A DNA stretch of 64,000 bases from Oidiodendron maius Zn (Eukaryota; Ascomycota; Leotiomycetes; Myxotrichaceae): positions 1,068,245 through 1,132,244 of the forward strand of contig KN832873.1 in the NCBI GenBank assembly GCA_000827325.1. Reading direction: 5' to 3'. The position numbers and the translations under genes are program-made. Under the pieces are notes generated by a model. That model was not told where the DNA came from and searched no databases. It was given only the letters and a program-made list of their open reading frames with translations. This document shows positions 14,402 through 64,000 of this stretch, one piece after another. Positions within the stretch are counted from its first letter, which is position 1. Every line of letters starts with the position of its first letter.

Positions 14402-16016
14402 ATGGGAAAGCCTCGCATGATAATTTTGATCAGACATGGCCAGTCAGAAGGCAATAGTGAGTCCTCTTTTATAGGTGCTGTAGAGAAGGCAATATCCTCA
14501 CATGTATTATCCTCATGCAAAGCAGAATTCAACTGACCACATTCAGAAAACCGCGAGATCCACCAGACAATCCCGGATCACCGTGTAAAGCTCACCCCTG
14601 ACGGCTGGGCTCAAGCCCACGACGCAGGACGACGTCTCCGCTCTCTCCTCCGCGCGGACGATACCCTTCACTTCTTTACATCGCCGTATCGCCGTACAAG
14701 GGAAACAACTGAGGGTATCCTCTCCACCTTGACCTCTGACGACCCCTCTCCCTCGCCGTTCCCTAGGCACAGCATAAAAGTTTATGAAGAGCCACGGCTG
14801 AGAGAGCAGGACTTTGGCAACTTCCAGCCATGCTCAGTAGAGATGGAGCGTATGTGGCAGGAGCGTGCAGACTATGGGCACTTCTTTTACAGAATTCCTA
14901 ATGGAGAGTCTGCTGCAGATGCGTACGACCGAATTAGTGGGTTTAATGAGAGTCTATGGAGGCAGTTTGGGGAGGATGACTGCGCCTCCGTGTATGTACT
15001 GGGTATGTTTTCTGTATATTCACTGGCGGGTCGTGGTCAGGAAGCTAATAAAGGCAGTTACACACGGCCTCATGTCTCGGGTATTTCTTATGAAATGGTA
15101 CCACTTCAGTGTTGAATATTTCGAAGACCTCCGGAATATAAACCACTGCGAGTTCCTCATCATGCGCAAATCAAACGACTCAGGGAAGTACGTTCTTGAG
15201 AACAACCTCCGCACCTGGTCACAGTTGAAAGAAGAGCGCCTTGCCGCCGCAGCGAAGGAGAAGGAGAAGGAGAAGGAAAAGGAGAAGGAGAAGGAGAAGA
15301 AGAGCCTTTCATCCTCCTCACCATCCTCTCCAATCTCAGACCGCGATCGCGAAAAGAGGAAGAAACTTGAAGCTGCCGTCCATGCCCCTACACGCAAGAA
15401 ATGGGGCGGCTGTCCCAATGGCTGCGATCACGGCAAACACATGTTTAGGCGCCAGAACTCTATGCACGCCATGGAGCAGCTTGAGCGCGCATCCCTAGTT
15501 GCTGTCTCTCCTGTCGACACACGCCCTCCTGCTCGCCGCCGGCGCTGGCAGAATTCGAGTGACGATGAGGATTCGGACGAGCCGCACGCGGGAGGACCTG
15601 GGATGGCCATCAACGTGTCGAAAAGCTTAACAGACGTCGTTTCTAGCCCAGATGGCACGCCGTCGTTCATCTCGGTCGAGCAGCGCCTGCGCATGAGCAG
15701 TCCCCAAAGCAATGGCATGCTTGTTAGCACGGGGCGAGACTTCGGAGGTTCGGCAAGCGGGAACACATCTGTGGCAGGGTCGGATACGGAGGGGGAGGGG
15801 AAGAAAGGGGCTGGAGGGGCCGAGGAGAAGGAGGAACTGAGGAAGGTGATGCTGCGCGCAGGGATGGAGAGCGGGATGGGCAGGGGCGCGATGGCAGATG
15901 CGCTCGGCGATCAGTCGGATGCCGGGTCTGATGTCGTTGCCGGTGAGCGGGGTGTAGAGATCGATATTAGGGCCTTGCAGCTTGAGGAGGAGAGTGTGCA
16001 GGGGAGTGTATATTGA
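14402..16016 (+). CDS. Histidine-phosphatase (phosphoglycerate mutase) family protein
   Basis: Exons 14402-14456, 14547-15002 and 15058-16016 give 489 residues. Residues 1-200 form a branch-1 histidine phosphatase domain: LIRHGQSEGN (His12, the phospho-acceptor), SPYRRTRET (phosphate-binding Arg), LREQDFGN (acidic residue) and VTHGLMSR (second His, about 173). The layout, with GDWxxPCDHGKHM-like zinc-style residues (CPNGCDHGKH) in the tail, matches fungal homologues of yeast YDR051C (DET1) and fission-yeast relatives, not glycolytic mutase. A nearly pure Lys-Glu run (about residues 236-253) and a long Ser/Gly/Glu-rich disordered tail follow. The substrate is unknown; by homology it may act on phosphorylated proteins or small molecules in the cytosol. 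Confidence 0.85.
15254..15302 (+). repeat. GAGAAG hexanucleotide microsatellite inside the phosphatase gene
   Basis: About eight tandem copies of GAGAAG with one GAAAAG variant. It encodes the alternating Lys-Glu run and is in frame, so changes in copy number would alter only the length of the charged linker between the catalytic domain and the tail. Confidence 0.85.
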
Positions 16017-59151: not shown

Positions 59152-59671
59152 TTATCCGGGCCCGATGCGAGGCATGTCGTGGTGCTCGGAAAGATTTGAG
59201 AGATACTTGTTTAGCTCCTCTACACGCTCCTTATGCGTCTTTGTTCCCTCGCGTGCAAGCCGATCGCTCAGCTATTAACACATAAATGTCAGTTTAAATT
59301 CTGCTAGTTCCAGGGTATGGAATTTTTAAAAGAGGTAAGATGAAGCGAGAAAAGGGAAATCAGAGTAAGGGACGAGAAGGATAGCAGAGGAAAACACGAA
59401 CTCGTTTCCGGCGCATCTCCTCCGCGGCACGTTCAGCCGCTGTTTTGCCATCGTGTGGATCGCGTTGCTCGAGCTCACGTAATTCAGCGTCGTCGTCTTC
59501 ACTGGGTTTGGCGCTGGAAGCTTCATCCGCTGCAGCTGCTTTCTGCAGCGCCGAGTCCCGAGAGGGCGTCGAGCTCGAGGAGTGCTTCTTCTTTTTCTTC
59601 TTGATACCAGTCGGCTTCGCACCTTTTAGCTTGAGGCCGCCACCGGGTGTGTGGTAGTCATCATCTGCCAT
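59152..59671 (-). CDS. FAM32A-like (DUF1754) protein
   Basis: Minus-strand exons 59671-59402 and 59271-59152 (130-nt intron) give 129 residues. The N-terminus GGGLKLKGAKPTGIKKKKKK, the Glu/Asp-rich middle, EEMRRKR at the junction and the C-terminus LAREGTKTHKERVEELNKYL through EHHDMPRIGPG are the FAM32A signature. In humans FAM32A is a late spliceosomal factor that helps exon ligation, so a nuclear splicing role is expected here by homology. The intron donor is GTTCGT, weaker than its neighbours, but only this site joins the conserved parts in frame. Reading through instead would give a 103-residue protein lacking the conserved tail. Confidence 0.9.
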
Positions 59672-60689
59672 GGTGGTTTGCGGAGGGGCAGCGCAGCACC
59701 TTGGGTGAGGTGCCAGTGGTGAGTCGTGTGAGTGGGATATCGGATATTTATTTTTCCGGCCTGAACGACTTCTGTTGATACAGTATATAGATCGTTAACA
59801 CTTTGATGTGTTGTGTCTACATTATGCACAACCACATCTTCAATTTCAGATCTTTCTAAGATTATGTAATGCCTCATCCTATTTGATGTGATTATTAAAA
59901 CAAGAACGACCTTTCTTTTCCAGCTGTGTTTAGCGTACAGAAAGACTAGTGGTCCATTTTCTAACACCCAAAATGCCAGATGGTGTATAGTCATACCCTG
60001 TTCGAGAGTCAAATTGTTCCATAAATCATACGTTACGGATAATTCATTTCTGTCTCACTATCAATGTTACAAAAGTCTATATACGTATAAAAGAAGATAA
60101 AAGTATGCAGCTTATAGTTCTCTTCACAGTTCACAATTTTGACTTCCCACTTCTGTATATGATCCAGAAGACTGTGTCCTGTATTACAATTTTGCTCATT
60201 GCACATAAGACATATATTATCTTCACGAGTCACTGCTTTGCTGCACAGGTGCTTCTATTACCTCTATTCAGGCCGCCTTCTGGATGCCCACAGCACTCTG
60301 CCACCTTTTCAGTTGTATATAACATTGGCATAACTGATTATACTGCTTCACAACTGTCCTCAATTCCGCAGTGGTTTTTAGCATGTTACTAGCTCTGATA
60401 TGCAATCCTTTACCTTCAACGTCCATATTCTCAACATCTACCCCAACACACTTTCTACTCCTATATCACATCCCTTTTTTTCTTTTTTTAATGCAGACTA
60501 TACCATTGTTAGAACATTCAGTCTCATAGAAATGAACTATGCTGAAGGGAGATCAAACTCTCGCAGTCACTGCCAGTCATGGCATCTTCTTCTAGTCTTT
60601 CCCATCGGTGTACCATCCCAGAATCCTCATGCGGATCAATACAAAGCCTCTAAGCGGATCCTGGTCATCCCACAGCAATGACACCAGAT
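59672..60689. other. Intergenic, AT-rich, leading into the tandem array
   Basis: About 1 kb with no supportable gene. It should hold the FAM32A promoter (minus strand). From about 60400 the plus strand becomes pyrimidine-rich, and very diverged repeat units may already begin near 60620. Confidence 0.35.
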
Positions 60690-62540
60690 CCACAGTGTCC
60701 TTGCACATCTGCTCATATTTCGTAGCTTCGCTCTTTTCCTCCACTAAATTAGAACATCTCCGACTTGTTTCGTTGTATAACTAGCCATGGTTCATCGCAT
60801 TGCTTTATTCTCTTGTCTAAACTGGGAGATATCTCTCTCTTTTCATTGCAAATCTGATCATAGTTCATAACACCACTACCTTCTCTCTTCTAGCTAGGAA
60901 CTAGTTTCTATATTTTGTTGTACATCTGCTCATGGCTTAAGCATTACTCTATTCTCTCATCTTAGCTAGGAAAAATATTCCCCACTTTCGTTCTATATCT
61001 GCTCATAGGTCATAGCATCACTCCTTTGTCTTCTTGGTTTGGAAATGTCCTCCTTATTTCGTTGCATGCCTGCCATTGTTCTGTAGCATTAATTCATTCT
61101 GACTTAGTTACGAAATATCTCCTTCATTTCGTTGCACATCTTCTCTCGTGCAACAGAGTTTCACTTCCCTGCCTTTGCCCGAGTAGGAAATATCCTACCC
61201 CCATGATTTCGTTGCGTATCTGAAATCTGGAACATTGTTTTTCCGTGAATACTAGTTCCTATTTCAGCCAAGAAGGGTCCATTCCCAATTCATCTTATAT
61301 CTCGTTGCGTATCTGAATCTGGAACATAGTTTTTCCAGCTTCATTCCCCTTCATCCGCCTAATTGGGAATCTTCACTATTTCGTTGCGTGTCTGAATCTG
61401 AAACATAATTTTTCCGTGGATACTAGTCCTCTTATAGTCAATCAAAGAATGATTCAGCTAACCTAGTGTTTTGTTGTCTGCATTTTTGGTGAAAATCGGA
61501 ACTTTACCCATTCTGGATTCCGGGCTGTTTCGTTGCGTATCTGACTCTGGAACATAGTTTTTCCGTGAAGGGGTTATAGCTGCTACTGCTAATTAAAGCA
61601 TGATATAGAGCTGTTGGAGGGTTTTGCTGCAGATCTGAGATCTGGAGTTAATGTTCATACCTTTCCTTTCCGGACCAAGAACAGTTTCGTTGCGTATCTG
61701 GGCTTGAGTGAATCCTGAGTGTCTTCCTTGGATGCATGGATAGGCCCGTTGCATATCTGCCTTTCCAGTAAACAGTGTGCCTCCTTCCCCTTCTGGATAG
61801 GCAGACAATTTCGTTGCGTATCCGCAATTCTAGGTGAAAATTTTACCTTTTTCCTTTCTAAGACTCAGAGCAGTTGCGTTGCATGACGGCACTTAAGTGA
61901 ACTTTGAGCTCCCTTCTTCCCTGGCTCATGATCAATCTCCTTGTTTATCATCCGCCTATCAGGTGGCAAAGCAACCTTTCCTTTCTAGGAATTTCAAACA
62001 TCTTCGTTGCGTATCTGCATTTTCATTGAACCTCTCCTTCTCCCTGAATACCAGACAAAGTTTCGTTGCGTGTCTGAGTTACAGTGAACAGTGGCCCTTC
62101 TTCTTTCCCGAATTCCTGGACACATTCTTGCTGTGCACTTGCTTTAGGTGAACGTTTACTTCCTGCCCTTCTAGAAGACTAATTCAGAGTTCCTTCCATT
62201 CCGGGATTCCAGATACGATTCCGTTGCATGCCTATGTTGCCATCGTGCATGTTCACCTTTTGCCTTCTGGAAATCATGGTCGGTCACAGTTTATTGCATA
62301 TCTGTCTCAGGCTTTTGTTGAGCGTCTACTTCACTTCTCCCCTTTTTTCAGAAATCAGAACTAGAGTCCGTTGTCCACCTACACTTTTAGCTTTCCGTTA
62401 GCTGGATCACTGCATCTGCTCAGCCAATCACGCGGCGCATTTCAGGGTCTTGTGGTTTCGTTGCGTACCTGCATTTGAGGTCAGTGTCAAGAGCACTTCT
62501 GGGATTTTGCTGCTATCTACTGGATCTGGCTTGAACTAGA
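60690..62540. repeat. Degenerate tandem array, about 25 units of 59-94 nt
   Basis: A core close to TTTCGTTGCGTATCTG recurs at about 60698, 60771, 60844, 60916, 60989, 61060, 61130, 61210, 61303, 61382, 61472, 61531, 61625, 61688, 61747, 61812, 61877, 61945, 62005, 62064, 62128, 62222, 62292, 62369 and 62459. The first seven are spaced 70-73 nt. Three sub-types are visible: an early one with CATCTGCTCATGG and AGCTAGGAA, a middle one with ATCTGGAACATAGTTTTTCC (61210-61570), and a later, shorter one (59-68 nt) with AGTGAACAGTG and CCTTCTTCC. The plus strand is strongly pyrimidine-rich between cores. No reading frame spans the array and the pitch is not a multiple of three, so it is non-coding. 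Confidence 0.8.
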
Positions 62541-62973
62541 AGCATGCTGAAGAATGTCATGCATCTGCTGACTTTGTATAGAATTATCAACCAACATTAT
62601 GGATGTGTGGATGTGTTGTATTCCGCATTAGCAATCGCCTTGCACCTTACTCCCTTACCATTTCAAGAATAAGATCCACAACAAGGGAGTCTGAATACGC
62701 AAATCCAGTTTTGGCAAGCTGCTGCCAGCTGAACATTTTCATAGGCGAGCCCCTCAGGAGTTATGCTAGCTTTGGACTAGCATTTGTAAGTGAGCTTTTA
62801 TGCGTCACCAAAGGTTGAATGTATCACCAGAAATAAGACTCAGAAAAAAATTTCAATTCATGGTATCTCTATCTCACATCTTCTCTTATGACGGGCAGAC
62901 ATACAGAATGCCTATAGTTTGACGTTACCAAATATTCTCCTCCAACGCCAGATATTATTCGAATCCCTATTAC
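62541..62973. other. 3' flank of the Nup188-like gene
   Basis: 433 bp between the end of the tandem array and the stop codon of the nucleoporin gene; no gene supported. The open frame at 62603-62818 has no recognisable content. Confidence 0.35.
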
Positions 62974-64000
62974 TCAGGATTCACCAGCTCCAAGCACATC
63001 CCGAATTCCACGCAGCTCCGCCACCACTTTTTCCTCGAGTTTATTGGCAGCTGTGCCTCCCGTCTTCTTCTTAGACATCCACACCTCCCTCTCACCCATA
63101 GGGAGAATCCTCTCTCGCAGCACCGTCACCGAGCCAAGCCAGAACTCAACATTCTCCAACACCGCGGCAGCGTCCCATTTCACCTCTGGAATGTCAGATC
63201 CTGTTGCCTCCTCTCGGAATCCATTTAAAATGAAAATTATGAGGGACAGCGTGTGGATCTCGGAGCAGATGCTCAATGTAATATATTTAGTCTGTGCTTT
63301 TGATGCGGTACGGGATAGTTCCGGAGCATCGAATGCTTGAGATGCTTGTTCGAGAAGATTAGGGAACTGCATGATGAAGACGGAGACCTCGGATGCGATG
63401 GAAGCGCCTACTGCATCGAGCATATGTAGAAGCAGGGGAAGGATTCCCCGCACCCAGATGCTGTAGCAGCGCTGGTACCCAGCACCATCGGCGAACGGGC
63501 TCACGTTTGATCGCCTGAGGTATGTTGTTATATTTGCAGCTCCGATATGGCCAAGTACGCCGTCAATAGCTAGCTGTTCTGCCATGGCTGGCACGGCTGA
63601 TAGCTCAAGGAGGAAGAGGATGCTGAGCTCACCGTAGATGGGATCTCCATCTATAGCCAGGCTGTCTGACCAGGTGAAAAGTGTGGTCGCCACCCGCGCG
63701 GAATCGCATTGAACGAACATCGATACAATTTGAGAATACGAAAGATCGATTCCAGGAATGCGCAGGCCTGTTTGTAGGATAGCTGTGATAAGGGCAAGAT
63801 CCGCAGGAGACGACTCAACCGGCTTTTCGTGGATAAAGGCAGCAAGGTCTCGGAGACCGTTTGCAACCACTCGATGAAAGATGTCAAGGACAATCGGTAT
63901 GACATCAGCTTTCTCCGTGAGGCGGATCGATGAGCGGAAATCTGCATCAGAATCTTGACGCAGGTTATTGGACTCTCCATGGACTCGAAGGGCGAGGAAA
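62974..64000 (-). CDS. NUP188: C-terminal part of nucleoporin Nup188 (truncated by window edge)
   Basis: The minus-strand frame is open from the window end (64000) to TGA at 62976-62974, about 341 residues, with no intron seen. It is entirely helical in character, like the alpha-solenoid tail of a scaffold nucleoporin. Segments such as LTEKADVIPIVLDIFHRVVA, AFIHEKPVESSPADLALITA, IWVRGILPLLLHMLDAVGAS and LENVEFWLGSVTVLRERIL resemble fungal Nup188, an inner-ring component of the nuclear pore. The call rests on remembered family character, not on a diagnostic motif; another HEAT-like protein is possible. The tail ends with a Lys-rich segment and KLEEKVVAELRGIRDVLGAG, a probable short coiled coil. 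Confidence 0.65.
   Translation of the reverse strand, partial: FLALRVHGESNNLRQDSDADFRSSIRLTEKADVIPIVLDIFHRVVANGLRDLAAFIHEKPVESSPADLALITAILQTGLRIPGIDLSYSQIVSMFVQCDSARVATTLFTWSDSLAIDGDPIYGELSILFLLELSAVPAMAEQLAIDGVLGHIGAANITTYLRRSNVSPFADGAGYQRCYSIWVRGILPLLLHMLDAVGASIASEVSVFIMQFPNLLEQASQAFDAPELSRTASKAQTKYITLSICSEIHTLSLIIFILNGFREEATGSDIPEVKWDAAAVLENVEFWLGSVTVLRERILPMGEREVWMSKKKTGGTAANKLEEKVVAELRGIRDVLGAGES

Follow-up and report, generated by a model that had tools for sequence, protein, structure and literature searches.

The window analysed here, a stretch of 64,000 nucleotides from contig KN832873.1 of Oidiodendron maius Zn, contains a degenerate tandem array between two genes that are both encoded on the minus strand. 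To the right lies the C-terminal part of NUP188 (62974..63870, minus strand; Nup188_C, E 2.8e-123), the 3′ end of which is directed toward the array; viral contigs were scanned for NUP188 as well, without a match. To the left, an open frame (59360..59671, minus strand) contains the 5′ portion of a gene resembling FAM32A (FAM32A, E 7.9e-07 at 59500–59671), with its start facing the array at a distance of about 1 kb. The cores of the array are read on the plus strand, which is pyrimidine-rich in this region (AT skew −0.19/−0.20 and GC skew −0.20/−0.11 in the 2-kb segments 60001–62000/61001–63000). A protein-coding repeat was rejected: among ORFs that begin with ATG and reach 40 aa or more, none within the array is longer than 57 aa. 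Elsewhere in the window, a GAAGGA hexamer repeat (8.3 copies, 15254–15303) is located inside a 383-aa open frame at 14865–16016.

A position matrix finds 23 co-oriented cores, with the best form TTTCGTTGCGTATCTG, at 60696..62471 on the plus strand (starts 60696–62456). Twenty-two of the 23 score above any plus-strand place outside 60500–62700, where the top score is 13.1; the top score on the minus strand is 13.0. The matrix was trained on the array cores themselves, and a blind motif finder served as the independent control: its best 16-mer in 60600–62600 reaches 17.9 bits (21 sites), whereas 15 shuffles, which preserve dinucleotides only approximately, stay at or below 9.1 bits and ten other 2-kb stretches of the window at or below 9.4 bits (150 random starts for the real region, 60 for the controls). 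When up to three mismatches to the 16-mer are allowed, the window contains 13 matches, all of them on the plus strand and inside the array, and none on the minus strand, so that the core is not equally frequent elsewhere in the window. Further candidate cores at 61472, 61936, 62124 and 62503 were recognized by eye, a weak by-eye candidate stretching the array to 62519; with these four added, the total comes near the approximately 25 units counted in the first-pass annotation.

The first six intervals between matrix cores are 72, 73, 72, 73, 71, and 70 nt, and the subsequent ones are 80, 93, 79, 105, 44, 94, 63, 59, 65, 65, 128, 59, 158, 70, 77, and 90 nt. The intervals of 105 and 44 nt flank one weak core, and those of 128 and 158 nt contain the candidates 61936 and 62124, seen by eye only. 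Thus, the early regularity described before (70–73 nt) stands, and the range of 59–94 nt given for the later units covers most of them, with matrix intervals from 44 to 158 nt also occurring. Periodicity exceeds that of shuffled sequence both in the motif search and in the lag analysis: compared with mononucleotide shuffles, lags of 72/73 and 145 nt are prominent in 60600–61150, and lags of 149 and 171 nt in 61150–61650, which points to a dimer-level structure in the array.

Three blocks, all on the plus strand, can be distinguished. Block A (60672..61182) comprises seven variable cores, with six intervals of 70–73 nt followed by one of 80 nt. Block B (61183..61660) has strong cores at 61207, 61300, 61379, and 61528 and weak ones at 61484 and 61622; the strong cores have in common a downstream stretch like AATCTGGAACATAGTTTTTCC, and the dimer-level repeats with lags of 149 and 171 nt belong to this block. 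Block C (61661..62471), with cores at 61685, 61744, 61809, 61874, 62002, 62061, 62219, 62289, and 62456 and a weak core at 62366, has the most diverged spacers of the array. Exact copies of TTTCGTTGCGTATCTG are found at 61207..61222, 61528..61543, and 61685..61700, and copies with one mismatch at 61300..61315, 61379..61394, 61809..61824, 62002..62017, 62061..62076, and 62456..62471, all on the plus strand.

When 21 units are compared in pairs, the 16-nt core has an identity of 0.75 and 48 flank positions have one of 0.31, with 0.27 expected there from composition, and hence the core is indeed better conserved than the spacers, as had been noticed from the letters alone. In the block comparison, which covers 20 of the 21 cores (61622 being assigned to no block), flank identity within blocks is 0.43 for A, 0.42 for B, and 0.33 for C, and 0.27–0.31 between blocks, whereas core identity is 0.71–0.94 throughout and 0.71–0.83 between blocks. 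The flanks being more alike within blocks than between them, the three sub-types proposed earlier are real. TRF gives no row at 60.6–62.6 kb with a score of at least 40, and the near-identical head-to-tail units of a homogenized minisatellite or satellite are absent at this low flank identity. No other copy of the whole array was found in the genome by a DNA search with the array.

In the genome as searched (45.9 Mb, 58 contigs), the 17-bp motif TTTTGTTGCAYRTCGCA has 87 exact matches, with about 0.02 estimated by chance, and 165 matches at up to one mismatch, compared with two for the reversed control; the counts of 87 and 165 allow for the two degenerate positions of the motif. The 13-mer GTTGCAYRTCGCA has 140 matches vs. 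one in the control, and an earlier search with a form ending in TCGCA yielded 173 matches at up to two mismatches, vs. five for the reversed control. Separately, an exact 13-mer on C10 was set aside as probably due to chance; it falls inside a PP2C-type coding sequence (identified by eye). Over 38 loci with one site each (L096 and L108 being left out), each position within the 17 bp, where choosing sites by their match introduces a bias, carries 1.0–1.9 bits, and outside, where the profile is unbiased, the value is at most 0.3 bits; conservation ends sharply at the edges of the 17 bp. Positions 11 and 12 of the motif are pyrimidine–purine in nearly all 38 sites.

Where examined, the sites are located between genes. 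None of 85 motif cores from 58 loci falls inside a coding segment, as judged by a weak predictor, and the median ORF of 40 site loci is 107.5 codons. The corresponding values are 184 in 63 pieces of the window (p 5e-8) and, for 18 chance-like loci, 210 codons (p 3e-4), the sites compared being those on C1 with no more than one mismatch (10 of 14 loci within 0.65 Mb); for 20 further near-hit loci the median is 143.5 codons, given without a significance test. The genes next to eight sites, which occupy divergent, tandem, and convergent intergenic regions, have no common theme. GC skew changes across the sites in 45 of 58 loci (p 4e-5); the change is the same from either strand and therefore only suggests that the sites tend to sit between outward-facing gene starts. 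Of the words in the vicinity of the core, neither CCAAT (ratio 1.1) nor TATAAA (ratio 2.4, p 0.056) is significantly enriched, CCAATCA occurs four times near the core vs. twice far from it (p 0.04), and the best 6-mer (p 3e-5) is not significant across some 4000 words. The word and GC-skew tests, like that for target-site duplications considered below, leave out L063, L065, L068, L069, L096, and L108, which are repeats of other loci.

The core of the window array corresponds to TTTTGTTGCAYRTCGCA carrying an additional base after position 14 and, mostly, C at position 4. The resulting 18-letter form has, at up to four mismatches on both strands, 19 matches in the array vs. five in the rest of the window, and the motif without the insertion has eight vs. 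four; 1000 permuted motifs in the same two forms give at most three matches. The insertion had been placed by eye beforehand; at neighbouring positions, the array yields as many as 11 matches. Genome-wide, the 18-letter form has 13 matches at up to one mismatch, six of them in this array and a second one described below, compared with none in the control. Even with the insertion allowed, the cores in the window are two to four mismatches away from the 17-bp motif, two mismatches to the 18-letter form being found for the core TTTTGTTGTACATCTG at 60913..60928 and for the core at 61809..61824 (both on the plus strand), so that binding to them may be weak, may involve a paralogue, or may not occur. 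The window array may be active as a cluster, may serve a paralogous protein, or may be fading.

Contrary to the first-pass annotation, the array does not stand alone: its core is a member of the dispersed family, of which 87 copies are exact, and there are other arrays as well. The second array (L039, 2758–3383, i.e., C1:2062257–2062882) was found by a degenerate core pattern and is missed both by TRF and by the DNA search with the window array. It has ten matrix matches, mostly 61–65 bp apart, with a core close to TTTCGTTGCATATCTG that resembles the one in the window, whereas the spacers are different; the 18-letter form has seven matches in it and none in the remainder of its 6.5 kb. It lies between RIO-type kinase and FAD monooxygenase genes, and a third cluster, with the form ending in TCGCA, is near a malate dehydrogenase gene (all three named by eye). 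Among the 100 of 140 13-mer matches listed (C1–C9), 49 sites have a neighbour within 600 bp and 51 have none, and adjacent pairs within 600 bp are on the same strand in 26 cases vs. four on opposite strands. Extra degenerate cores are present in 13 of 40 site loci (L077–L116), 16 on the same strand vs. three on the opposite one, against a background of 0.08 per kb.

The arrays differ in the similarity of their units. Young arrays are seen in L061 (106 bp, 4.0 copies, 76% alike) and L062 (116 bp, 2.5 copies, 84% alike), and in other clusters, e.g., L034, L064, L077, L103, and L112, the flanks score as unrelated and only the cores agree. The flank comparison covers L061–L116, L137–L144, L034, and L039; many of the clusters called unrelated consist of no more than two or three cores. 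By this score, L065, L068, and L069 come out as internally unrelated, whereas BLAST shows repeats that they share with other loci. Beside the motif array in L062 there is a 77-bp tandem repeat (82–319, i.e., C1:2626081–2626318; 3.1 copies, 75%), in most units of which a stretch like CTTYRTTRC can be read. L067, L068, and L069, on three contigs, contain motif pairs 280–302 bp apart that are followed by TAGCC in six of six and by CCAATGA in four of six cases, and are a separate repeat family.

On C1 (6.6 Mb), 14 of the 21 motif loci fall within 0.7 Mb (2.35–3.05 Mb), which, for the matches listed, exceeds all 5000 random placements. This stretch is not gene-poor (ten samples vs. ten), and a general architectural site would not predict such a concentration. 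The same contig has, at 4.326–4.388 Mb, seven reverse-transcriptase (RVT_1) matches, all with internal TAG stops, as expected after repeat-induced point mutation; this cluster is possibly the centromere. Stop-ridden reverse-transcriptase copies also occur near the ends of several contigs. A centromeric reading of the motif was set aside as less probable, its peak on C1 being away from the RVT_1 cluster at 4.33–4.39 Mb, a candidate centromere, and not gene-poor.

Taken together, these observations make it probable that the window array is a homotypic cluster of putative binding sites for a sequence-specific DNA-binding protein, with TTTTGTTGCAYRTCGCA as the reference site. This reading is suggested by the long exact site of 17 bp, its unrelated flanks, its intergenic position where examined, the mostly single orientation, and the several stages of decay. 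A cluster of protein-binding sites was one of the roles considered in the first-pass annotation, and we infer that it fits best; the suggestion made there that selection on the core, and not satellite decay, has shaped the array is supported by the match to the dispersed motif and by the identities of cores and flanks. In the proposed course of events, a single site would have been duplicated in tandem, possibly through the bound protein disturbing replication or recombination, and the spacers would have drifted afterwards, with selection on binding keeping the cores. The least certain step is the effect of binding, which could be insulation or architecture, gene regulation, or a replication barrier. 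With its dozens of exact copies, the 17-bp site could serve directly as bait for the protein (bait form TTTTGTTGCACATCGCA), and the series from a single site through a young array to a decayed one with only its cores left makes the seeding and outliving of tandem repeats by a site testable in one genome.

According to one alternative, the element acts at the RNA level: arrays and clusters would belong to long non-coding transcripts, and an RNA-binding protein would repeatedly recognize UUUYGUUGCRYAUC..GCA in them. Strict co-orientation is unnecessary for an ordinary transcription factor site and fits an RNA element equally well; because of it, i.e., the excess of neighbouring cores on one strand among the matches listed, and given the pyrimidine-rich core strand of the window array, we regard this alternative as unlikely but worth keeping in mind. 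Against it, about half of the listed matches (51 of 100) are without a neighbour within 600 bp, and, among the neighbourhoods read, the core and gene strands agree in L139 and L141 but disagree in the window, L034, and L138. Support from RNA families and folding is also lacking. Rfam finds no family match in the window and 19 loci, and no cluster of tRNA- or snoRNA-type genes was detected (ARAGORN, window and 39 loci; Rfam, window and 19 loci). The letters GGAAC...TTTTTCC, previously noted as able to form a small hairpin, are present in units 61207, 61300, and 61528 (GAAAC in 61379), but RNAalifold on 21 units gives no consensus structure, and folding compared with 20 shuffles shows no excess stability either in 60670–61650 (z 0.19 on the plus and −0.23 on the minus strand) or in 61600–62560 (z −0.56 and +2.98, respectively). 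For the earlier idea of a non-coding RNA built from repeats, Rfam and folding thus give no support as far as a structured RNA is concerned, and an unstructured transcript over the array would be compatible with these results.

Less likely still, and in our view rather improbable, is that mobile elements spread the motif as a terminal, subterminal, or internal piece of an old transposon, the arrays being debris. Some loci do lie in repeated elements: L099 and L108 have 284 bp in common at 94% identity, with a weaker copy in L096 and the motif inside the element, and L061, L063, and L065 share a repeat; the genome also has 41 matches to the pogo/CENP-B type HTH domain (PF03221). However, among 59 loci and the window stretch, only 113 of 1770 locus pairs give any alignment, which exceeds 45 bp in 11 cases and is 45 bp or shorter in 102, and the short alignments are mostly on the core (among the 60 of 113 pairs listed). 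The sharp edges of the 17 bp likewise speak against such an origin. At 62 exact sites there is no excess of target-site duplications of 2–8 nt, a 3-nt flank duplication being observed at three of them vs. 1.0 expected (p 0.09), and an inverted partner is found in three of 40 1-kb loci (within about 500 bp); MITEs, transposon termini, and an inserted 17-mer were rejected on these grounds. Finally, a neutral, decaying minisatellite, whose core would be the least decayed part merely by chance, agrees with the hierarchical, degenerate repeats typical of ageing tandem arrays, but is very hard to reconcile with the likeness of the core to a motif that has been conserved in dozens of places unrelated to one another, and with a core identity of 0.71–0.83 between blocks with flanks near chance.

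For the putative binding sites, we lean toward an architectural or insulating role, because the genes around the eight sites are without a theme and their settings are divergent, tandem, and convergent. To our knowledge, long, exact, genome-wide recognition sites are seldom met with in fungi except for those of a few general regulatory factors, and we know of no established fungal counterpart of CTCF or Su(Hw). Exact-letter searches of the literature for the core returned nothing, or pig and virus papers containing only TGTTGCACATCG; the motif was not found among the matches listed in topic searches, and a search on systems of this kind gave animal systems only, again among the matches listed. 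A more specific conjecture, which we put forward tentatively and consider unlikely as it stands, is a leotiomycete system of chromosome architecture or insulation, in which a dedicated protein, comparable in function to Su(Hw) or CTCF, would read the oriented 17-bp site at dozens of positions between genes and in arrays like that between NUP188 and FAM32A, and would provoke tandem duplication around its own sites.

Several known systems have features in common with these sites. Homotypic clusters of transcription factor sites in promoters are similar in having several copies near genes with freely drifting spacers, but the site described here is unusually long and exact, is mostly in one orientation, and has no theme among the neighbours of the eight sites. 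The essential bases of the CENP-B box are TTCG....A..CGGG; by eye, about ten of 17 letters of TTTTGTTGCAYRTCGCA agree with the box, CGGG being absent, and the motif copies read here sit between genes, with the densest stretch on C1 distinct from the decayed reverse-transcriptase cluster. In the Drosophila gypsy insulator, 12 Su(Hw) sites with the consensus TGT(TA)GC(AC)TACTTTT..GG are located in 340 bp (PMC2374998). The combination of a long conserved site that is mostly isolated with one dense array of degenerate copies is similar to what we observe (PMC2374998). The first 8–9 letters (TGTTGCAYA) are partly common to both by eye, but agreement with the consensus as given there stops at that point, the second half being TACTTTT..GG in Su(Hw) (PMC2374998) and YRTCGCA in our motif; the spacing in the window array is approximately 60–95 bp. 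Su(Hw) is an animal protein, whereas the motif here is fungal, its protein is putative, and about half of the listed sites are clustered. In Meloidogyne satellites, the CENP-B-box-like Box 1 is proposed to promote array rearrangement and, as in O. maius, a 17-bp motif stays constant in tandem repeats that are unrelated in all other respects, higher-order repeats being present as well (PMC3694981).
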